Part shown: one piece after another, positions 822 through 15,958 of the stretch
Numbering within the stretch: position 1 is the first letter of the stretch
Layout of the letters: each line of letters begins with the position of its first letter
IMG/VR virus record: IMGVR_UViG_3300020473_001965
Span: 124,001-188,000 of that record
Source of the DNA: a virus
Length of the DNA: 64,000 bases
Reading direction: 5' to 3' (one strand)
The notes under the pieces: generated by a model
What the model was told of the DNA's origin: nothing
Seen by the model: the letters and a program-made list of their open reading frames with translations, nothing else
The model's database searches: none
Translations under genes and position numbers: made by a program

Positions 822-1226
822 TTATTGGTAACTTTTAACAGACACACCTGAAGAGAGAAGCAAATCTATCCCAGACCTATCACGATACTCTTCGTCATAG
901 ATCACTTCATCAATTCCGGCGTTTATCATCGCTTTGGCACACATTCTACAAGGTGAGAGCGTCACATACATTATCTTCTTCTTAGGATTGTTATAATCCA
1001 TTTTTAGAAGTGCGTTAATTTCTGCATGAATCATTCCCGACGCGCCTGGTTCTACTGACTCTACTTCATTAGGCCCGCCTTGATGGTTTCCGTTATACCC
1101 AACGGAAAGAACTTGTGTATTATCGTCAGTGACTACTATAGCTCCCACTTGATATCTTGGATCGTATGACCTTCTAGAAATGTTTCTGGCAAAGCTCATC
1201 CATATTTCATCCCACTCTGGACGCAT
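822..1226 (-). CDS. dcd: dCMP deaminase
   Basis: Deaminates dCMP to dUMP, feeding thymidylate synthesis, in the cytoplasm of the infected cell. The 134-aa protein is a compact zinc-dependent cytidine/deoxycytidylate deaminase: HAE at residues 67-69 gives the zinc-binding His and proton-shuttling Glu, and PCRMC at 92-96 gives the two zinc Cys. The N-terminal NISRRSYDPRYQVGAIVV segment is typical of the dCMP deaminase branch. The start is ATG with a perfect AGGAGG seven bases upstream, and a sigma70-like promoter lies just before it. The length is near the short end of phage enzymes. With ThyX, the dUTPase relative and ribonucleotide reductase in the same window it completes a route to dTMP. 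The symbol is by function only; other names are in use. Confidence 0.9.
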   Translation of the reverse strand: MRPEWDEIWMSFARNISRRSYDPRYQVGAIVVTDDNTQVLSVGYNGNHQGGPNEVESVEPGASGMIHAEINALLKMDYNNPKKKIMYVTLSPCRMCAKAMINAGIDEVIYDEEYRDRSGIDLLLSSGVSVKSYQ

Positions 1227-2251: not shown

Positions 2252-2824
2252 TTAGTCCTTTCTATTAGCCCTATTGATATATCTATGCATTTCCCAACAT
2301 CTTGGCTCGTAGAGGTCGGAGCCTCCAACAGCAATCTCGTCCAAGTCTTCTTGCTTTCTGTGGGTATAAAATGCATCTCTTCCCGTAATAGGACAGACAG
2401 CAGGACATATCTCAATTTTGGTTGCCCAGGGCATTATATCTCGAACTTCTTCAAAAATATTCCCTGAGGCTGACATCTGCAAGGAGCTTACCACTATTGT
2501 ATAACCTTGTTGAAAAATTTCTATTAAAGCTTTCGCCACACCTGGAATCATAAAGGCTTCATCTACAGCCACTACATCGGGTTTTTCTGATGCATCTTTT
2601 ATATATTTTAACACATCTTCACCCTTGTTTACACAAATCGCGTCCAGCCTTCCGCCTGAGTGAGTTACGATAGCATTGTTGTCATATCTATCGTCGATCA
2701 AGGGCTTGAATGCTACTATCTTCTTATTTTGATACCTGTATCTATCAATTGTAGCAAGCATTCTGGTTGTCTTGGATCCGAACATGGGACCTGCAAAAAT
2801 AATGAACTTTGGATCATTAGTCAT
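2252..2824 (-). CDS. tdk: Thymidine kinase (type II, TK1-like)
   Basis: Phosphorylates thymidine/deoxyuridine with ATP in the salvage branch of dTMP supply. The start chosen is ATG 2824, 13 bases after the stop of the cupin gene (190 aa, the normal family length); an earlier ATG at 2851 is possible. The P-loop reads GPMFGSKTT at residues 12-20, followed by Arg as in TK1; VAVDEAFM is the Walker B/catalytic Glu region, and FEEVRDIMPWATKI is the usual region before the zinc lobe. Oddity: the lobe reads AVCPITGRDAF where TK1 proteins normally have C-x2-C, so one zinc Cys looks absent; the second half (RCWEMHRY) keeps a Cys and a His. The gene sits in a tight run with the DHH and cupin genes. Confidence 0.85.
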   Translation of the reverse strand: MTNDPKFIIFAGPMFGSKTTRMLATIDRYRYQNKKIVAFKPLIDDRYDNNAIVTHSGGRLDAICVNKGEDVLKYIKDASEKPDVVAVDEAFMIPGVAKALIEIFQQGYTIVVSSLQMSASGNIFEEVRDIMPWATKIEICPAVCPITGRDAFYTHRKQEDLDEIAVGGSDLYEPRCWEMHRYINRANRKD

Positions 2825-2837
2825 TTCTTTCTCGTGC

Positions 2838-3263
2838 TTATTGTTTCTCATCACAGCGACCGTAGTCGTCTTCGATTCGTACGCAGTTGCTTCTAAGATT
2901 ATCACCTACTTCAATTATTTCACAGTCTTCAAGCGCCTCAATTCGGTATGGGCAACCGCTTTGAACGTGAAGAACGTCTCCTGCACTCATTTCTTGTGTC
3001 TGGATTGGGTTAAGATCCCCCGGCTCTTTCAACGAATATTCATTTCCAAACGTTGCTAAAGCTCTTCCTTTTAACAAAAACAGTGTTTCATTTTTTTGTG
3101 TGTTATATTTGAAGCTAGTTCTAAAACCTGCGTTTATTAATAGCGTCTTTCCGTGTACACCAGTAAACCCTGACCATACTATCTCTTGACCCCAGGGTTT
3201 CTCAACACTTGTACCCTTGGTTACCCATGCGGTTTTCTTGTGTTTTCTAGACATAAACATCAT
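2838..3263 (-). CDS. Cupin protein, mannose-6-phosphate isomerase type II-like
   Basis: A 141-aa single-domain cupin. KPWGQE near residue 23, the YNTQKNETLFLLKGRA stretch and a second motif around GDVLHVQSGCPYRIEAL match the C-terminal isomerase half of bifunctional mannose-6-phosphate isomerase/GDP-mannose pyrophosphorylase. Free-standing relatives act on phosphosugars or bind small ligands. Metal ligands are poorer than in true isomerases (Asn and Gln where His would be expected), so activity is uncertain. The start ATG at 3263 overlaps the stop of the upstream IMPDH/GMP reductase gene as ATGA, showing translational coupling. With two SDR epimerase-like genes and a glycosyltransferase nearby it may belong to a sugar-nucleotide or surface-glycan function. 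Confidence 0.7.
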   Translation of the reverse strand: MMFMSRKHKKTAWVTKGTSVEKPWGQEIVWSGFTGVHGKTLLINAGFRTSFKYNTQKNETLFLLKGRALATFGNEYSLKEPGDLNPIQTQEMSAGDVLHVQSGCPYRIEALEDCEIIEVGDNLRSNCVRIEDDYGRCDEKQ

Positions 3264-4300
3264 TCACCTCCGTGCAAAATGTGGGGTGTACCTTCGTATG
3301 ATCCGGCTGCAGTCTGAATGCCCCACTTCGCAACAACGGGTATTTCGCTCAAATTATGTGCATTCATATAAGACATGCTACTTTGGATTCCTGACTTCAA
3401 ATCCTTGATGATCGTCTGAGCGCTGGGCTTTACAGGCACTGAAGTTCTTACGCCCTCACCTACTGGCATATCTGCTCTGTCCCTATTTTTTCTGTCTATC
3501 ATGGCAGATGTAGAAGCCATGCCTCGAAATATCTTTACAGGCCCTGTTGGAGTTTGAACTACCGATCCTGGTGTTTCCGGAGCGCCAGAAAAAACACTCC
3601 CTAGCATGACATAATCTGCGCCGGCGGCTAATGCTTTTGCAATATCGCCTGAAGATCTTAAGCCTCCATCTGCGATGATTTTTACGCCCAATGAGTCAGC
3701 TACATCACAGCATTTAATCAAGCATGAGAACATCGGGACACCGTGTCCTGTGATCACCCTTGTTGAGCAACAAGATCCTCCACCGATACCTACTTTAATG
3801 CAATCGGCGCCCCAGTCTGCTAAATCTTTAACTGCCTCTGGTGTGGCTACGTTTCCTGCTACTATGTAGATGTCACTACCGTATGTGTTTCTCATTACCT
3901 TGAGTGTGTGACGCATCATGGTGCTATGCCCGTGTGCTATGTCGACTATAAAGTTTCTAGCGCCTGACTCATAAAGTGCTCGTGTTCTTTCAAAATCAGA
4001 CTCGCTGGCACCTACAGAAACAAAACAATCTTTTTCAGCAGCTCGGACTTGAAGATAATCGTCTACCGCACCTTGGATTGAATTAAATCGATGAAGGGCA
4101 CCTACTCCACCCGCGCTAGCAATAGCAACAGCCATCTCGGGCCCTGTAACAGTGTCCATATTTGCAGATAGAATAGGAACGCCCAAATCGATTGTTCCAA
4201 TAGTAGATGACGTGTCGAGTGATGATCTTGACGTACAGTCAGTCATTTGTGGTATCAGAAACACATCATTAAAAGTATAATAGGTCTCACCAGTCGGCAT
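3260..4300 (-). CDS. IMP dehydrogenase/GMP reductase family enzyme without CBS domains
   Basis: A 346-aa TIM-barrel enzyme of the IMPDH/GMPR family. FNDVFLIPQ at the N-terminus, AGNVATPEAVKDL, GIGGGSCCSTRVITGHGVP (catalytic Cys loop) and IIADGGLRSSGDIAKALAAGADYVMLG are all family signatures. There is no Bateman (CBS) insert and the length equals that of GMP reductase, but the end (IQTAAGSYEGTPHIL) recalls IMPDH, so the direction of the reaction is undecided. Either activity would adjust guanine nucleotide pools during replication. The start is ATG 4300 with GGGAG eight bases upstream; it shares one base with the stop of the upstream SDR gene (TGATG). An upstream in-frame TTG at 4318 is less likely. 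Confidence 0.85.
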   Translation of the reverse strand: MPTGETYYTFNDVFLIPQMTDCTSRSSLDTSSTIGTIDLGVPILSANMDTVTGPEMAVAIASAGGVGALHRFNSIQGAVDDYLQVRAAEKDCFVSVGASESDFERTRALYESGARNFIVDIAHGHSTMMRHTLKVMRNTYGSDIYIVAGNVATPEAVKDLADWGADCIKVGIGGGSCCSTRVITGHGVPMFSCLIKCCDVADSLGVKIIADGGLRSSGDIAKALAAGADYVMLGSVFSGAPETPGSVVQTPTGPVKIFRGMASTSAMIDRKNRDRADMPVGEGVRTSVPVKPSAQTIIKDLKSGIQSSMSYMNAHNLSEIPVVAKWGIQTAAGSYEGTPHILHGGE

Positions 4301-5307
4301 CAATCTAGCTCCCACCAATCAATAGTCCTCTCAAGACCTTCCCAAAATCTTACAGTGGGCTCGTAACCGAGATCATTTTTAATCTCAGAAATGTCTGCTT
4401 GAGTGTGCATTACGTCCCCTGGCCTCCAGGGAGCATCTTGAACTACTACATGAGAAAATCGATTCTTGAAATACTCTAAGATTTCTTTGTTTGTAGTCCT
4501 GTCTCCGCAAGCAACGTTGTAACACTTACCCATAAACTTCATTGAAGCGTTTGCAGCTAAAACATTTGCATCTACAACGTTGTCAACATAACACATGTCT
4601 CTAGACTGTGTTCCGTCGCCGTCAGACCTCAGGGGTTTCATAAACTTAGTATTGTTACACCAGGCTGATACTGCAGTCGAATACGGCGAGTCTCCATACT
4701 GCCCCGGACCAAACACATTAAAGTATCGTAAACAAACAATATCTAGATTGTAGAGATCTCCAAATAATTTTGCCACATCTTCGATGGCACTCTTTTGCCA
4801 AGCGTAAGGTGATTTTGGATCTTTTGACTCCGCCTCTGTTGTAGGAAGAGTATCAGCGCCTCCGTACACTGAAGACGATGATGCCCAAACAACTCTGTCA
4901 ACAGCATTTCTAGAAGCTTCAAATAGAGCAACTGTCTTTGTTATATTGACGTCAGTAGTTTCAGTCGGATGCTCAACAGAATATGACACTCTAGGAACAG
5001 CGGCTTGATGAAATACTACATCGTACTCTCCTGATGCTACTAGCGATAATACTCTTTGATTAGCAAAATCATCTTGAATGACGAGAACCGTTCTGTCTGT
5101 AAAGGAACTGCTGTCTTTGGCTGCTAGCAAAAAAGAATCATAAAGCCCTGCATCTGGTACAGTTCTAAAGTCTAGGCCATCTAAAAGCTCAAGATGACCG
5201 TTTGACATATCGTCCACTATGGTAACAGACCATCCTTCTTTTACAAGCCTCTTGGCTAAGTTGCTCCCGATGAAACCGCAACCTCCCGTAACTAAAGCTT
5301 TTTTCAT
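4300..5307 (-). CDS. NAD-dependent epimerase/dehydratase (extended SDR)
   Basis: A 335-aa extended short-chain dehydrogenase of the nucleotide-sugar epimerase/dehydratase group (UDP-glucose 4-epimerase-like). TGGCGFIGSNL at residues 7-17 is the NAD-binding loop, FHQAAVPRVSYSVEHP the following conserved strand, SSSSVYGG the catalytic Ser region and YAWQKS the catalytic Tyr-x3-Lys. LRYFNVFGPGQ is typical of sugar-nucleotide substrates. The start ATG has GGAG seven bases upstream. It sits between the kinase/TS-like gene and the IMPDH-like gene. A second SDR lies at 12637-13611 and a GT8 enzyme at 9839-10618, so a sugar donor for DNA or cell-surface glycosylation is possible. The substrate cannot be read from sequence. 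Confidence 0.85.
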   Translation of the reverse strand: MKKALVTGGCGFIGSNLAKRLVKEGWSVTIVDDMSNGHLELLDGLDFRTVPDAGLYDSFLLAAKDSSSFTDRTVLVIQDDFANQRVLSLVASGEYDVVFHQAAVPRVSYSVEHPTETTDVNITKTVALFEASRNAVDRVVWASSSSVYGGADTLPTTEAESKDPKSPYAWQKSAIEDVAKLFGDLYNLDIVCLRYFNVFGPGQYGDSPYSTAVSAWCNNTKFMKPLRSDGDGTQSRDMCYVDNVVDANVLAANASMKFMGKCYNVACGDRTTNKEILEYFKNRFSHVVVQDAPWRPGDVMHTQADISEIKNDLGYEPTVRFWEGLERTIDWWELD

Positions 5308-5326: not shown

Positions 5327-6238
5327 CTACACCAAAATATGGGCAGAGTTTAAGTTAAAGCGCATTCTAACATCAACTTCTTTAGGAATTAAATTTAATT
5401 CTTTATAGACAGCATTTGTCAAAAAGTACAAAAAATTTAGATCGTATCTAAAAGTCTTTGCAACCTCAGACGACCTTAATACAAAATGCATGTCAAGCGT
5501 TGAGTCCCTATAAGAGGCATGAATTAGAGAAATACATGTATCATCTGTATATATAAACCGCCTTGATGTTACATGCTCTACTCTATTATACTCATTTTCT
5601 CCGCGTAACTCTCTTCTAATCTTTGTAATCATTGAAGAATAAATTTTCTTATAATAATCTTTTTCGTGCTCATAATCCATGACAGAAGGATCTACATCCT
5701 CAAAGGTCCCATCATCATAAAGTGTCATAGACAAGGGTGTAGCTTCATGACTAGGAGAGTTAGCAGCAAAAGTCTTGACAAAGTCTGCAATTAAATCTAA
5801 GTTGCCGTTTTCGATTGCTTCTATCTCGTTCTTTACGAGGCTTACATTGTAATCTAACTCTGATCCTCTTAAAACAGTGACATTAGGAAAGTGACAAAGC
5901 CTGTTAGCATGATTTTCAAAATCCTTATAGAGACCCTTGATATCTTCAAGAGATTGTATCTCATCTCCACGCATACTGTATCTTAAAATCACATCTTGAA
6001 AGTCTGGAAGCAGAATTACAAATCTATTGTTTAAGTTTAAGATTTCTCGAGACATACCATACTCATGATGTTTTGTGTCTCTCTCATATTGCGCAGCGTG
6101 AACAAGCATGGAAAGATATGACCTGTCTTGTATGTTCCACTTGTAGCTGGAATCCTTATGAAGCGAATTATAGAAAGTTGTTTTTCCTGAAAGGTCTGGG
6201 CCTTCGAGAATTATATAGTTTGTCGGAAATCTTGTCAT
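5327..6238 (-). CDS. Fusion of a dNMP-kinase-like P-loop domain and a thymidylate-synthase-like domain
   Basis: A 303-aa protein. Residues 1-145 look like a thymidylate/deoxynucleotide kinase: P-loop GPDLSGKTT at 13-21, then DRSYLSMLVHAAQYER where such kinases have their DR(S/W) substrate motif. Residues from about 200 look like the C-terminal half of thymidylate synthase: SRRFI (225-229, the phosphate-binding Arg pair), Cys235 in the place of the nucleophile, RDSTLDM, then LRSSEV (254-259), FRYD (263-266) and SAHIL. The spacing Cys to Arg (20) and Arg to Asp266 (11) equals that of E. coli TS Cys146-Arg166-Asn177 (numbers from memory). Asp at 266 is the residue that makes dCMP hydroxymethylase read cytosine. 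The first half of the TS fold is missing or unrecognisable. The start overlaps the DnaE stop as ATGA. Confidence 0.7.
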   Translation of the reverse strand: MTRFPTNYIILEGPDLSGKTTFYNSLHKDSSYKWNIQDRSYLSMLVHAAQYERDTKHHEYGMSREILNLNNRFVILLPDFQDVILRYSMRGDEIQSLEDIKGLYKDFENHANRLCHFPNVTVLRGSELDYNVSLVKNEIEAIENGNLDLIADFVKTFAANSPSHEATPLSMTLYDDGTFEDVDPSVMDYEHEKDYYKKIYSSMITKIRRELRGENEYNRVEHVTSRRFIYTDDTCISLIHASYRDSTLDMHFVLRSSEVAKTFRYDLNFLYFLTNAVYKELNLIPKEVDVRMRFNLNSAHILV

Positions 6239-9200
6239 GATACCACCGGTTTCATCTTGGCCCCTGATGTCGATGCTCCCCAGTCAGGATCATTGGTTAC
6301 ATCAGCCAGCCATATTGTAAAAGGTTCTGCTTCTTGGGGTAGGAATCCCCAGACTCTTAACCAAGAAAGATTATTTTGATCATCACAAACACGAAGCCTG
6401 AAAAATGTCTTGCCCTTCTTGGTCTTCTTTTTTATTATTTCCTGGATACAAAACCAGACTACAGTTCGCGTGCTCCCCTCAAGAGAGGTCAATCTAGGAA
6501 TGTCTGCTTTTTCGATCTTGTCAAGTATGTTACCCGGATAGAGAAGATCTCTTGGAACTGTTGACGTCAAGTCGTAATGCATTGCGAGTTTTTCTGAACG
6601 TGTCCAATCGTCGACATACTCAGTCTTTGAAATCAGTTCTGGCAATATTGGCGGCGCGCTAGACTTCATTGCTTTTCGAAGCGTCATTCCATACATGCTT
6701 TTCCGTAAAATCTCGTAGTTTTCAATGATTATCTCATAAAGCTGCCTGTGATTATTGATTCTGCCGGTGGCAAAATCTTCCAAAGATGAAAAAGCATTAA
6801 TCTTGCAAAGAGAAGAGAAACACGTCTTGTTCATTTTGGAATGCTTCCATTTACCTTCGTCGTCATACAATAGATTGTGCAAGCTCGTGTACGGTCTTGT
6901 TGCCATTATTTCTTGAACAGCGTTAATACCCACACCCTTGACAGACGTCAAAGGCGGCACGAAAGCATTGCGATCATCAGAGTATGCCCACTCGTCGCCA
7001 GAATAGTTGATATCAGCAGGAGCAAACTTATAACCCATTTGTTTGATCTCTGCAATAGTTTTTTCTAGACCCTTTGGATTGTTATTTTCTGACTGAAGGA
7101 TTGTTGCCAACCAAGACTTTTCATGGTATGTATGCAACCAAGCAGCGTAGTAAGAATCAATAGCATAAGCTACAGCGTGCGACTTATTGAAACCGTAAAC
7201 ACTGAAGAACTCAATCCTATCAAAGAGTTTGTGCATTTTATCTTCGGGCAAACCGTGTAGTTGATTAGCTCCTTCGACAAACTTTTTACGTAGTGCATCT
7301 CGTTCCGCGCCTTTCTTACCAATCGTGTCAAGTGACTTCTTAACAAGAGTCTTGCGCATCTTATCAGATTCACCCGGAGAAAAACCTGCCAACTTTTGTG
7401 CAAGAAGCATAAACTGCTCTTGGAATGTAATGTGGCCGAATGTTGTACCAAGAATCTCTTCAATAATCGGGTGATCATACTCAATCTTGCTAGCATTTTT
7501 CTTGTCCCGAACGTACTTTTTATGAACATTTGCCCGCAGTGGTCCAGGGCGGTAAATCGCTGTCAGAGCAGCCAGCTCTTCAATTGATGTAGGCTTTGCT
7601 GCTTCGCAGAACTTTCTAGCACCCTCAGCAGTAAATTGAAAGACGCCAGTCTTTCTTCGCTGATGATAAACATGCTTCCATACCTTTTCATCGTCCTGTG
7701 TAACAAACCTACAATTTAAGTGCTTGTCAAAATAATCTCTAATATCGATAAAAGTCGGATCTTCATTGCCTTCACTCTTTAGGATCCGTCGAATGCAATT
7801 TTCAACGTCTTTCAAGAGTGTCAACCCCAAGAAGTCAAACTTGATAAAACCATTGTCTTCAAGATTTCGGAAGTTCATCCCTTCAGTCCAGGGTGTTTGC
7901 AACTCACCGCGAACTGAGACTAGAGGCATTGTCTTTTCAAGGTCTTCGGCAGGTGCTATAATCACGCCGCCGGCGTGGCGACCGATTGAACGATTTTGCA
8001 TAAAGAGTGCTTCAATATGATCTTTTACCTTAGGGTAGTTGTTCATGAAATCCCGATAGCGCTTAGAATACTTCATACAATCTTCATGCTGGAGAACAAA
8101 AACAGACTTCTCGGTGTTTTCGTCGCGAGCCTGTGCCATTACCTCATCTTGAAGTGGCCCGGTCATCTTATTGACCTCTCCGAAATCAACACCGTAAAAC
8201 TTTGAAATGTCCTTAACGAGAGATTTAAGCTTCAAAGTATTGAAATTGGAAACAGGGATTACTGCTTCGTCACCGTATAGTTCACGGGCTGCATCAATAA
8301 GGGCATCTCTGTCGCCTGCATCGGAATCAATATCTGGCCAAGATGTTCTATGTCTTCCAAGGAATCGGTCCCAAAGTAGGCCATACGGAATAGGATCAAG
8401 CTGGGTTATCCCTAGCAAGTAATTTACAAGACTGCCGCCGCCAGAGCCACGGGCTGGGCCAAAGAGAGTTCTATCTTCTGCTTTGTGGAAAACCTGATAC
8501 ATCGTCAAGAAATAGTTTTCAAAACCTAGATACTTGATATCTGACATTTCTGTTTTAGTACGCTCGACGTATTCAGGCTTTAAGTGAAGCCCTGTGTCTA
8601 CGAGCCCTTGTTTTACAAGATCTAGTAGCTGATCAAAGGCAGACTTTTCAGGAGTGTTAAAGTTTGGAAGCTTAACTGACTGGTCGATCCAGACGTCTTC
8701 ACACATTTCCCATGCAATATCATGTGTACGTTCGATGGCATCTGAAATTGTTTGGTCGTGCCCTTTATAAAAATCGTACTTGTCGCGGTGCAATGTATAC
8801 TCATCCCACATCTGCTCAGCATTCTTCGGATAAAGCTCACATTTTAGGTTGTCAAACTCGGGCAGCGGTGAGGGGTTATCTCTCATCCACCCTAAACGCT
8901 TATACAACTCTCGTGCCTCCCACTTATTCGGATTATAATAATGAGAATCGGCTGTGGCCACCAGTGGGACACCTGTCGAATCATGCAGGCTTAGAAGGTG
9001 TTTGTTAACTGTGTGTTGCGCGTCCAGTTTATTGAATTGCAGCTCAAGAAAGAAGTTTTCATTACCTACACATTGAGTAAATCTATCCGTCAGGTTTTGA
9101 AGTTCCATCTGGATTTCAGCTTCTGATTTCTTTAGAGCTGTTCCGCGGAGAATGCGATTAGAATAAATCCCGCCTAAACATGCTGTGCTTACAACAAGGC

Positions 9201-9765
9201 CTTCGCCATGCTCTTGAAGCATATTAAAATCGATTCGTGGGAATCGATAGAATCCATGTTTATAAGCCTTCTTGATCAATGTAAAAAGATTACCAAGGCC
9301 CACTTGGTTTTTAGCGATAACAACCAAGTGATATCTACGCTTCCACTCATCTTTGAGGACATCAATTGTCTTTGTTTCGTCCTCGTCTTCAATGGTGTGC
9401 CCGGTAGCTTTGACATCATCATCAGCGTCGATGTCTGTCACCTCTAAAGCCTTTGCCTCAGACTTGGCGTCTCGGACGGCTTGCCGGTGAGCCTCGTAAT
9501 CGTTCCTCCAGTCAGTCAAAGAAGGTACGAAATAAAACTCACAGCCATAAAGCTGTCGATAATTGCGTCCAGCCTTTTGCAATTTTTCTGTATGTTTCCG
9601 AGCGTGCGCCAATCCTGATCCGTTACCGTGATCAGTTAGGGCCCAGGCATCCATGCCGTTCTCCAAAACAAAATCGATATGATCAGCGGGATAACCCAAG
9701 CCGTCAAAGACCGAAAAACCTGTGTGTGCGTGTAATCCTACAAACCGCTTTGGCTTGATTATCAT
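6235..9765 (-). CDS. dnaE: DNA polymerase III alpha-type (C-family) replicative polymerase with PHP domain
   Basis: A 1176-aa DnaE-like polymerase, probably the phage replicase. The PHP domain keeps all expected metal ligands: HAH at 12-14, TDH at 44-46, CEFYF at 75-79, RYHLV, TACLGG and ADSHY, so it may be an active metal-dependent exonuclease. An acidic insert (near residues 105-140) interrupts PHP. The palm follows: GPARGSGGGSLVNYLLG and WPDIDSD with the catalytic Asp pair. FNKSHAVAYA is a conserved DnaE fingers signature. A helix-hairpin-helix (SVKGVGINAVQEI) and a C-terminal OB-like domain close the protein. No DnaQ-type exonuclease, clamp or loader is seen in the window. Its own sigma70-like promoter precedes it, and the kinase/TS-like gene overlaps its stop by ATGA. 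Confidence 0.95.
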   Translation of the reverse strand: MIIKPKRFVGLHAHTGFSVFDGLGYPADHIDFVLENGMDAWALTDHGNGSGLAHARKHTEKLQKAGRNYRQLYGCEFYFVPSLTDWRNDYEAHRQAVRDAKSEAKALEVTDIDADDDVKATGHTIEDEDETKTIDVLKDEWKRRYHLVVIAKNQVGLGNLFTLIKKAYKHGFYRFPRIDFNMLQEHGEGLVVSTACLGGIYSNRILRGTALKKSEAEIQMELQNLTDRFTQCVGNENFFLELQFNKLDAQHTVNKHLLSLHDSTGVPLVATADSHYYNPNKWEARELYKRLGWMRDNPSPLPEFDNLKCELYPKNAEQMWDEYTLHRDKYDFYKGHDQTISDAIERTHDIAWEMCEDVWIDQSVKLPNFNTPEKSAFDQLLDLVKQGLVDTGLHLKPEYVERTKTEMSDIKYLGFENYFLTMYQVFHKAEDRTLFGPARGSGGGSLVNYLLGITQLDPIPYGLLWDRFLGRHRTSWPDIDSDAGDRDALIDAARELYGDEAVIPVSNFNTLKLKSLVKDISKFYGVDFGEVNKMTGPLQDEVMAQARDENTEKSVFVLQHEDCMKYSKRYRDFMNNYPKVKDHIEALFMQNRSIGRHAGGVIIAPAEDLEKTMPLVSVRGELQTPWTEGMNFRNLEDNGFIKFDFLGLTLLKDVENCIRRILKSEGNEDPTFIDIRDYFDKHLNCRFVTQDDEKVWKHVYHQRRKTGVFQFTAEGARKFCEAAKPTSIEELAALTAIYRPGPLRANVHKKYVRDKKNASKIEYDHPIIEEILGTTFGHITFQEQFMLLAQKLAGFSPGESDKMRKTLVKKSLDTIGKKGAERDALRKKFVEGANQLHGLPEDKMHKLFDRIEFFSVYGFNKSHAVAYAIDSYYAAWLHTYHEKSWLATILQSENNNPKGLEKTIAEIKQMGYKFAPADINYSGDEWAYSDDRNAFVPPLTSVKGVGINAVQEIMATRPYTSLHNLLYDDEGKWKHSKMNKTCFSSLCKINAFSSLEDFATGRINNHRQLYEIIIENYEILRKSMYGMTLRKAMKSSAPPILPELISKTEYVDDWTRSEKLAMHYDLTSTVPRDLLYPGNILDKIEKADIPRLTSLEGSTRTVVWFCIQEIIKKKTKKGKTFFRLRVCDDQNNLSWLRVWGFLPQEAEPFTIWLADVTNDPDWGASTSGAKMKPVVS

Positions 9766-9838: not shown

Positions 9839-10618
9839 TCAAGGACCAGAGTTATATTTCTTGACTAATGAATCGTAGAACTTTTTTTCAGGCCCTGTTT
9901 TTCCATTCCAAGGTTTCTTACTTCCTACAAAATGAAAAATTGCATTGCCCGATCTATGATAGTTGGCGTTAGAGTTGTAAATGTAAGGTGCATATAAAAC
10001 ATTGATTTTGTTTTCTACGAAAAATTGTCGCAAAAAAGGCTGATCGTCTGGAATACGTGATGCTTCTGAAATCTGTTTGCGAAGTTTTTGAAATTCTTTT
10101 GTCTTGAAAAACTCAGACTTGAACAAAAGAACGCCCGTATTTACGCCTCCAAAACTAGGATCGGTTGTCTCATACCACACTTTACTTTTTGCCTTTTGCT
10201 CAACACCAGAAATCAAGGCTTCAGAAGCTCGAAACTCACTTAGCCATCTATCGACATCTGTGTGGACGATTACGTCTGCATCGATATACATCATGTAGTC
10301 CGCTGAATGAATAGATGACTTTGTAAACGCGTCGAACCACCAGACATATTTGTCTGATTTCGAAGCTTTGGGTTTAAAGAACTTAGCACGAATTCCTAGC
10401 GACCTGATCTTTGCTTTTTGACTTTCCGTTATGTCGGGTGAAAAAACATAAAAATATAGCATTGCTGCTGTGTTTTTTGACAGAGAAAGAATTGTATTGA
10501 CAGCACCTGGATAGTGATTTTGATCAAAAGCTAGGATCGCACTGACCGCCGGCGTGGTTTGAGTGTCAAATACGCTCGTAAATCCATGATCATATCTTAA
10601 TTCTAACCATGTCGACAT
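9839..10618 (-). CDS. Glycosyltransferase family 8-like protein
   Basis: A 259-aa GT-A fold glycosyltransferase that should transfer a hexose from a nucleotide sugar. YIDADVIV carries the DxD metal/nucleotide site (113-115), FGGVNTGVLLF is the GT8 acceptor-loop signature, and HFVGSKKPW near 229-237 is the classic GT8 C-terminal HxxGxxKPW motif. The first 25 residues precede the usual first strand (VSAILAFDQNHYPGAVNTILSL). No signal peptide or membrane segment is seen, so it works in the cytoplasm. Acceptor unknown: modified DNA bases, a virion protein or host surface sugars are all possible. The gene is separated by four or fewer bases from two small genes upstream, and it ends just before the dnaE promoter. 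Confidence 0.88.
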   Translation of the reverse strand: MSTWLELRYDHGFTSVFDTQTTPAVSAILAFDQNHYPGAVNTILSLSKNTAAMLYFYVFSPDITESQKAKIRSLGIRAKFFKPKASKSDKYVWWFDAFTKSSIHSADYMMYIDADVIVHTDVDRWLSEFRASEALISGVEQKAKSKVWYETTDPSFGGVNTGVLLFKSEFFKTKEFQKLRKQISEASRIPDDQPFLRQFFVENKINVLYAPYIYNSNANYHRSGNAIFHFVGSKKPWNGKTGPEKKFYDSLVKKYNSGP

Positions 10619-14522: not shown

Positions 14523-14972
14523 TTACTCGATCTCTTGATCATAAGGTTCTTCAATCAAATAACCAGTCGAATGAACTCTGTCCAAATAATCTTCAAGTTG
14601 CTCAAAAGTTGTACATACCTTTATACCGCTTCTTGCTAGCATCAAGTTAAACTTTGCCCCTTCTGGGAGGCCTTGACAAAAGTACACGATCGGAACATTC
14701 TTAGCGTAGGCATAGCCGGCTTCCCATATGGTTCCGATATCCTTGTCTCTAGTATTGACAATCAAGAAATCTGATGTTTCGATATGATACAAGTTCCCTG
14801 CGAAGGTTTCATCCTGGGTCTCTTTTGGTGCATTCGGAGGGCAAACAAAAATCTTTCTTGGGCTTGCAAGGTCGATCCACTTTCGACTCTCACAAATCTC
14901 TTCAAGCCTTGTTAGCTCTTCTGCTTGAGTAGGATTGAACCACCCAGATGCCAAATAAATCTTCTTTTCCAT
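14523..14972 (-). CDS. Nucleoside 2-deoxyribosyltransferase-like protein
   Basis: A 149-aa member of the nucleoside 2-deoxyribosyltransferase family, which exchanges or hydrolyses bases on deoxyribonucleosides or their monophosphates. KIYLASGWFNPTQ at the N-terminus is the glycine-containing first loop; DKDIGTIWEAGYAYA carries the catalytic Glu in the family motif (D-x-GT-x-WE-x-GYA). The length is typical. ATG start with GGAG eight bases upstream; ThyX ends two bases before. In a phage it can salvage bases from degraded host DNA, or remove unwanted nucleotides (DNPH1/RCL-like hydrolysis, for example of hydroxymethyl-dUMP). Which of these applies cannot be told. Confidence 0.85.
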   Translation of the reverse strand: MEKKIYLASGWFNPTQAEELTRLEEICESRKWIDLASPRKIFVCPPNAPKETQDETFAGNLYHIETSDFLIVNTRDKDIGTIWEAGYAYAKNVPIVYFCQGLPEGAKFNLMLARSGIKVCTTFEQLEDYLDRVHSTGYLIEEPYDQEIE

Positions 14973-14974
14973 TT

Positions 14975-15958
14975 TTACTTCTCCATCTTTTTTTGATAAT
15001 CAGACTCAAGATCTGAAATTTGCTCTAGTAAATTGTTCCACTGTTGTCTAAACTTCGTGTTTCCGTCTGCTTCTTCAGTAGGCGGGTTAGTACCATTAAG
15101 ATCATAACGATAAGCTTGGTAAATTGTATCATTCGGATGATATTCAATATGCTGGTCGCTGTCATCATCAGGCCAGTAAAGATTAGTCCCCGTTCCTGCC
15201 CTTACATTTTTAATATAGTGCCATGCCGGACTGGTAAGCGCTTTTGTACCAATGACAGTACTAGCCTCAGGCAAGACCTTGATTATAGCCAGTGCCATCT
15301 TTGCAGCAATAAGATTATCAATTGCAGGTTGAATCTGCTTGTCTGATCTTTGCTTAACAAATCCGATAATATCTTTGAGATTGAACCTGCCATAGTAAAA
15401 TGTGGAGAGGCACTTTGGAAGAATAGTTCTCGCATCCATCATAGAAATTTGACGAGTGTCAACCATATCTGCGTAAAGTTTCTTTGAGTCCTCAACATGT
15501 CGCTTCCATCTGCGATAAAGCTCTGGACTGTTCTCAACAGAGCTTGGTACAAGACAGGGCTCATGGTGAAGAAATCTATCACCTGTACACTGGGCTGCAA
15601 AAGATCCTGCACGATGGCGGATGAGATGCGTTACGGTCTGTAGGTCGATTCCGCTGAACTTGAAGGTGAAGCTAAAAATCTCCATTGGCGTTGGAAGCGC
15701 TCTAAAATTTAGAACGTCCTCGAGATTTTCGCTTAGCTCATAAGTTGATGCAGATGATGGATCAGTGTACTCTGGCGTATCCGCCCAAGTTGCTTTAACA
15801 TAGCGCCAAGCAACTTCTCTCATTTGTTCAGCAGTTGGGTGATCGACAAGTTCAACTTCTAGACCTTCAAGGTCGTTAAGAAAATCAGTCGTTGGCTCTT
15901 CGTCAAATCGAAGAGTCATAGGTAGTTCTACAGGTGTTAGATCGTTATTTTGAGGCAA
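14975..15958 (-). CDS. thyX: Flavin-dependent thymidylate synthase (ThyX) with altered signature
   Basis: Makes dTMP from dUMP using methylene-THF, NADPH and FAD. The 327-aa protein shows the ThyX landmarks LIRHRAGSF (RHR at 114-116) and, later, DARTILPKCLSTFYY, RFNLKDIIGF and KQRSDKQIQPAI (AR-LP, N, R and Q positions). The usual RHRX7S signature is changed: residue 124 is Cys instead of Ser, and the Arg expected two residues later is at 128. The protein is longer than many ThyX (about 220-250 aa) with extensions at both ends. The start is TTG 15958: AAGGAG stands seven bases upstream and a TTGTAC-17-TATTAT promoter lies before it, while the first in-frame ATG has no ribosome site. Confidence 0.85.
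   Translation of the reverse strand: MPQNNDLTPVELPMTLRFDEEPTTDFLNDLEGLEVELVDHPTAEQMREVAWRYVKATWADTPEYTDPSSASTYELSENLEDVLNFRALPTPMEIFSFTFKFSGIDLQTVTHLIRHRAGSFAAQCTGDRFLHHEPCLVPSSVENSPELYRRWKRHVEDSKKLYADMVDTRQISMMDARTILPKCLSTFYYGRFNLKDIIGFVKQRSDKQIQPAIDNLIAAKMALAIIKVLPEASTVIGTKALTSPAWHYIKNVRAGTGTNLYWPDDDSDQHIEYHPNDTIYQAYRYDLNGTNPPTEEADGNTKFRQQWNNLLEQISDLESDYQKKMEK

Follow-up and report, generated by a model that had tools for sequence, protein, structure and literature searches.

The gene at positions 5327-6238 of the analysed DNA encodes a real fusion of a kinase with half of a thymidylate synthase (TS) superfamily enzyme, and its sequence and predicted structure suggest that the 303-residue protein likely works like a dCMP C5-modifying enzyme. 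The DNA, below called the window, is a stretch of 64,000 nucleotides from the IMG/VR virus record IMGVR_UViG_3300020473_001965 (positions 124,001 to 188,000). Our best explanation, to which we give a probability of roughly one half, is that of a bifunctional precursor enzyme, in which the TS half would modify dCMP at C5 and the kinase would activate the product, with the flavin route being favoured. The parts are of known kinds; what is new, in that our searches did not turn it up, is their combination: a kinase joined to a TS half that lacks the cofactor half, encoded together with a remodelled ThyX. The gene and its two parts are the following:

5327..6238 (-): kinase / TS-half fusion gene, an intact ORF of 303 aa with 64 non-redundant homologs
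5813..6238 (-): N-terminal P-loop dNMP-kinase-like domain, residues about 1-142 (phrog_761, YorR profile, AlphaFold2 model)
5330..5812 (-): C-terminal TS-superfamily half, residues about 143-303 (phrog_160, hhalign, AlphaFold2 model of the half alone)

The fusion gene, its family and its neighbours

Scans of IMG/VR reached 121 stretches encoding the fusion, of which 80 were kept, and a reduction to less than 90% identity left 64 non-redundant members. Nearly all of these are 295-325 aa long, and their C terminus usually lies a few residues past His300. Because the 64 homologs keep identical sites, chance or an artefact as the source of the fusion was ruled out. The fusion gene is common to many large marine phages; one full-length locus lies on a contig assigned to a euryarchaeal MAG by binning, and no close relative was found among 50,697 phage isolate records. 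A search of the literature on phage kinase/TS fusions, with most subscription papers and preprints outside its scope, found nothing relevant.

The fusion sits in an operon of nucleotide genes:

6235..9765 (-): DnaE-type DNA polymerase III alpha, the adjoining upstream gene, with an ATGA overlap
4300..5307 (-): NDP-sugar epimerase (Pfam Epimerase), the next gene downstream
2252..2905 (-): thymidine kinase (PF00265, 7e-34), near the fusion in 55/64 loci
822..1226 (-): dCMP deaminase (phrog_174, 9.4e-46), near the fusion in 51/64 loci
14523..14972 (-): nucleoside 2-deoxyribosyltransferase-like protein (PF05014, 1.3e-14), 27/64 loci

The start of the fusion ORF overlaps the stop of dnaE by four bases (ATGA), and since the ORF begins within the dnaE stop codon, this suggests that the fusion gene may be translationally coupled to the polymerase gene. 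The dnaE gene lies less than 8 kb upstream in all 64 loci and directly upstream in 36 of them, the epimerase is found within 8 kb in 49/64 loci and as the next gene in 33/64, and a DHH phosphoesterase is near the fusion in 42/64. The PF05014 family presumably includes the hmCMP N-glycosidase MilB; the PF05014 protein of the cluster could remove unmodified or modified dNMPs. A family 8 glycosyltransferase (9839-10618 (-)) is encoded just upstream of dnaE and is an uncommon neighbour in the relatives.

A canonical TS or a full-length hydroxymethylase elsewhere in the phage was also considered, and none was found in the record: there is no other TS-superfamily protein detected in it, and PF00303 gave no match at E<=10. 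Likewise, no TS-superfamily (PF00303) protein passed the cut-off in 30 fusion-bearing records.

The kinase domain and the TS half

The sites discussed in this section are listed here, with their conservation among the 64 members.

6176..6205 (-): P-loop EGPDLSGKTT, residues 12-21; E12, G13, D15, G18 and K19 invariant (64/64)
6119..6127 (-): DRS motif of the kinase, residues 38-40; D38 and R39 invariant (64/64)
5654..5656 (-): Tyr195, by alignment the presumed counterpart of TS Tyr94 and of Tyr96 in T4 dCMP hydroxymethylase (dCH); Y in 62/64
5558..5563 (-): Arg226-Arg227, TS Arg126-127, phosphate binding from the partner subunit; 64/64
5534..5536 (-): Cys235, the TS Cys146 nucleophile; 64/64
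5471..5476 (-): Arg255-Ser256, TS Arg166-Ser167; 64/64
5441..5443 (-): Asp266, at the position of TS Asn177 and Asp in dCMP enzymes; Asp in 64/64
5339..5341 (-): His300, TS His207, three residues from the C terminus; 64/64

A scan of the 303-aa protein as a single sequence gave no Pfam match at E<=10, while the phage profiles phrog_761 (thymidylate kinase) and phrog_160 (thymidylate synthase) matched residues 31-142 (E=1.4e-11) and residues 234-301 (E=5.8e-5), respectively. On the kinase side, a profile search of the PDB matched YorR (E 9.2e-10), and there were weak Pfam matches to TMPK in 43 members of the family and to dNK in 25. The P-loop had been placed at residues 13-21 by the original prediction, and GPDLSGKTT indeed stands there. 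Twelve positions of the domain are invariant in 64/64 members (E12, G13, D15, G18, K19, H27, D38, R39, R53, R86, G91 and D92). With a P-loop, a DR motif, lid arginines and the kinase fold, the N-terminal domain looks dNMP-kinase-like in sequence and model.

In the second half, the TS landmarks that had been named from the sequence (SRR at 225-227, Cys235, RSSE at 255-258 and a His near 300, which is H300) are all present, although S225 is Ser or Thr across the 64 homologs and RSSE is variable at its third and fourth residues. The positions E192, R226, R227, C235, R244, R255, S256, D266 and H300 are invariant (64/64). The spacings named for E. coli TS (20 from Cys to Arg and 11 from Arg to position 266) could be verified against ThyA (C146, R166, N177), and the same spacings, there ending in Asp, are found in T4-type gp42 (C148, R168, D179) and in AfhB of phage HY126 (C163, R183, D194). 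The Asp at position 266, read as a sign of a cytosine substrate, is shared by every homolog. The MetaGPA study singles out positions 177 and 147 as those that distinguish cytosine-modifying TS-like enzymes best (PMC8670742). In our family, the residue at E. coli position 147 (Cys+1) is Ile in 61/64 members, whereas it is His in TS and Thr in gp42 and AfhB. Taken by its residues, the TS half keeps a conserved dCMP-type pocket.

The comparison of predicted structures that the original prediction proposed gives a TS-superfamily fold with AfhB, T4 dCMP hydroxymethylase and TS nearest. AlphaFold2 models were obtained for the full-length protein with the 64-member alignment (mean pLDDT 96.7, pTM 0.91) and for the TS half alone (96.0 and 0.91). 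In a Foldseek search of the PDB with the predicted half, the top matches all belong to the TS superfamily; AfhB with dCMP ranks first (9iqu, 8.0e-8, TMq 0.65), AfhB with dCMP and FAD is next (9iqc), and T4 dCMP hydroxymethylase and TS follow. By its PDB titles, AfhB is a dCMP hydroxylase that was deposited as riboflavin-dependent; these titles and PMC13390438 are our basis for its chemistry. With the full-length model the ranking for the TS part is unchanged, except that chains of Plasmodium DHFR-TS come between AfhB and T4 dCMP hydroxymethylase. By sequence profile, the best TS-superfamily match in the PDB is T4 dCMP hydroxymethylase (E=0.0024), with AfhB at E=0.035; hhalign of the TS half gives 3e-8 for the AfhB family, 1.5e-7 for T4-type gp42, 2.9e-6 for the Pelagibacter phage TS-like protein and 5.7e-5 for ThyA. 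This margin in sequence between AfhB and gp42 appears too small for deciding the chemistry.

The claim that the first half of the TS fold is missing was right in substance. Compared with ThyA, helix A, the five strands of the sheet and the helix before SRR are kept (alignment and AlphaFold2 secondary structure), so the five-strand core is there. According to the alignment and the predicted fold, a stretch of about 55 residues, corresponding roughly to E. coli 38-92, is absent, including Glu58, Trp80 and Trp83, and so is nearly all sequence past His207, including the C-terminal tail. The Glu60-equivalent segment (the folate-side helix of T4 gp42) is absent by alignment as well, and about 50 residues precede the SRR helix here, compared with about 115 in AfhB. 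We saw no cofactor site in the TS half; the invariant E192, three residues ahead of Tyr195, may be a stand-in for Glu58. In T4 dCH, Asp145, three residues before the Cys, is required for hydroxymethylation (PMC6400193), and in our family this column holds Asp in 31/64 and Glu in 2/64 members.

The original prediction of a kinase joined to a cytosine-type TS-like enzyme therefore stands in part. The fusion itself, Asp266, the dCMP enzymes as nearest folds, the dNMP-kinase-like character of the kinase and a kinase/TS-like gene pair in the phage HTVC119P speak for it. On the other hand, folate hydroxymethylation is unsupported because the folate/general-base segment of about 55 residues is absent and Asp145 is not conserved. 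The idea that the fusion does the job of T4 gp42 is likewise unsupported, given the absent Glu58/Glu60 segment, the unconserved Asp145 and a closest structure that is a hydroxylase deposited as riboflavin-dependent; that the protein is a gp42 is unsupported because defining features of gp42 were tested for and not found.

A divergent ThyX encoded with the fusion

The window also encodes a candidate for the flavin side of the chemistry:

14975..15958 (-): divergent ThyX-like flavoenzyme with the motif RHRAGSFAAQCTGDR (PF02511 1.6e-17; ThyX crystal structures 1.4e-5)

This divergent ThyX, about 330 aa long, was found in 29/30 records that carry the fusion (in the remaining one, the locus lies close to where the contig ends), and a second ThyX of canonical type was found in 15/30. 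The phage itself has both paralogs, a canonical one (G000:57140-57757) and the divergent one with the fixed RHRAGSFAAQCTGDR. In 77 distinct loci, the divergent form keeps RHR, and the canonical residues that follow are replaced by an almost fixed [AS]AQCTGDR. The matching region of T. maritima ThyX presumably holds dUMP-binding residues.

We also asked how often this ThyX occurs without the fusion. Of 80 ThyX loci, 28 have a full fusion inside the fetched flanks, and many others lie on contigs already known to carry the fusion farther away. Another 26 ThyX records were searched whole: five have fusion-family matches that extend through the whole TS half to its end (in one case as two pieces), one has a truncated gene with the kinase only, and one has just a fragment where the contig ends. 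The fusion was not matched in the other 19 of the 26, most of which are short fragments, the largest being 134 kb with the gene near the contig end. The link between fusion and ThyX thus is strong in these sequences, though perhaps not obligate, and the co-occurrence falls mostly inside one related phage lineage.

Geobacillus phage GR1 encodes the same divergent ThyX at full length (46% identity) and, directly behind it, a stand-alone TS half of 151 aa (A4 HMM 3.1e-8); a separate related kinase (3e-13) is also present. In the vicinity there are genes for a nitroreductase/dihydropteridine reductase, a PF05014 protein, a glycosyltransferase and DnaE. Coming from another phage lineage, this alternative architecture is our strongest hint that the TS half and the divergent ThyX may work together. 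The GR1 half has lost R244 and one of the two SRR arginines. Its gene (L132:11721-12176, UDY80710.1) is annotated as hypothetical in this isolate phage.

In a marine relative (L147:15304-15849), the gene stops after the first strand of the TS half, about 20 bases before a thymidine kinase gene, and is left as kinase only beside an intact divergent ThyX. The TS half seems to be dispensable at this locus, since kinase and ThyX persist there with nearly all of it lost, and this speaks against an obligate link between TS half and ThyX.

Possible chemistry and known systems

In the bifunctional reading, the TS-superfamily half would bind dCMP, with Asp266 reading the cytosine and the arginines and Ser256 holding the phosphate. 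Cys235 would attack C6 and so activate C5 for substitution, and the P-loop kinase would phosphorylate the 5-substituted dCMP towards a dNTP for the DnaE polymerase encoded next to it. With the folate half missing, a classical TS/gp42 folate site is probably not the source of the C5 substituent; the substituent could come via flavin, either by an AfhB-like hydroxylation or from the divergent ThyX flavoprotein that is encoded along with the fusion. We infer the substrate, the catalysis, the order of steps and the cofactor, including dCMP, the C5 modification and the phosphorylation on the same chain; between the flavin route and the classical folate route we favour flavin and make no claim which it is. 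For the bifunctional reading we counted the invariant site set (64/64), the AlphaFold2 and Foldseek results, the kinase homology, the nucleotide operon, the ThyX co-occurrence and GR1. Against it we counted the lack of a visible cofactor site, Ile at 147, the arginine losses in GR1, L147 and the single-lineage ThyX co-occurrence.

Potentially, the TS half could be a classical folate-dependent dCMP hydroxymethylase or methylase like gp42, with a folate pocket that the kinase domain or a partner subunit would rebuild. Asp266 with the full nucleotide site, the alignment of Tyr195 with T4 Tyr96 and the first place of T4 dCMP hydroxymethylase among TS-superfamily sequence matches in the PDB (E=0.0024) would agree with this. 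We consider it quite improbable nonetheless, with the Glu58/Glu60 and folate-contact segment and the C-terminal tail absent and the Asp145 that T4 needs for hydroxymethylation (PMC6400193) being Asp in 31/64 members here. It is also unlikely that the half is a non-catalytic dCMP/dNMP sensor or a specificity module for the kinase: the missing cofactor half and the L147 kinase that persists without it fit such a role, but Cys235 (64/64) and Tyr195 (62/64) are kept and not needed for binding alone, and in GR1 the half is encoded on its own next to ThyX instead of being attached to the kinase.

Two more specific flavin schemes deserve attention. The protein may be a flavin-dependent dCMP 5-hydroxylase like AfhB, a narrower version of the bifunctional explanation, in which 5-hydroxy-dCMP is later glycosylated and the adjacent epimerase takes part in the pathway. 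AfhB is the top structural match for both models, the epimerase adjoins in 33/64 loci (within 8 kb in 49/64), and RB69-type phages have glycosylated 5-hydroxycytosine made via a TS-superfamily 5-hodCMP synthase (PMC13390438). However, the near-full-length TS fold of AfhB has a helix seemingly matching the Glu58 helix that is absent here, and with the small sequence margin over gp42 (3e-8 vs 1.5e-7) we regard the scheme as doubtful. Equally tentative, and rather unlikely in our view, is a division of labour in which the TS half (Cys, Asp) is the pyrimidine-activating site, the divergent ThyX the flavin/one-carbon or oxygen side, and the kinase activates the product; if true, two unrelated thymidylate-synthase folds would be combined in one reaction.

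If the fusion is active, it would show that thymidylate synthase does not need its folate half for the pyrimidine half to work, and one chain would unite C5 modification and phosphorylation, which T4 splits between gp42 and gp1. It would further point to one more way in which marine phages make modified cytosine, and it would give a testable prediction for the divergent ThyX.

Compared with known systems, the fusion shares with ThyA (PF00303) the core five-strand sheet, SRR, Cys, RS and His, but it has Asp for Asn177, lacks the folate half and the C-terminal tail, and is not reached by PF00303. With T4 gp42 it has in common the Cys148/Arg168/Asp179 spacing and an MRSND-type motif, whereas the folate half (Glu60, Trp82) and Asp145 that gp42 retains are absent or not conserved. 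AfhB of Escherichia phage HY126, which we group with the RB69ORF048c-type 5-hodCMP synthase, is likewise of the TS superfamily; AfhB is the best structural match of the predicted fold, was solved with dCMP and has a similarly short C-terminal tail. Unlike the fusion, AfhB has no kinase attached, has Thr instead of Ile at Cys+1 and retains the N-terminal cofactor-side segment (E73 helix, NTFYGPRI). In Pelagibacter phage HTVC119P (L014:5995-7279), a related kinase and an Asp-type TS-like enzyme are encoded together, although as two overlapping genes and with a full-length TS-like protein (282 aa); this TS-like gene, which has Asp in place of the Asn177 of TS, is annotated as thymidylate synthase. 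Finally, the kinase shares the P-loop, the DR-x-x-x-S signature and the RGD lid with phage dNMP/thymidylate kinases (phrog_761, SPBc2 YorR), T4 gp1 being the presumed functional counterpart, but differs from them in being joined to a TS half.
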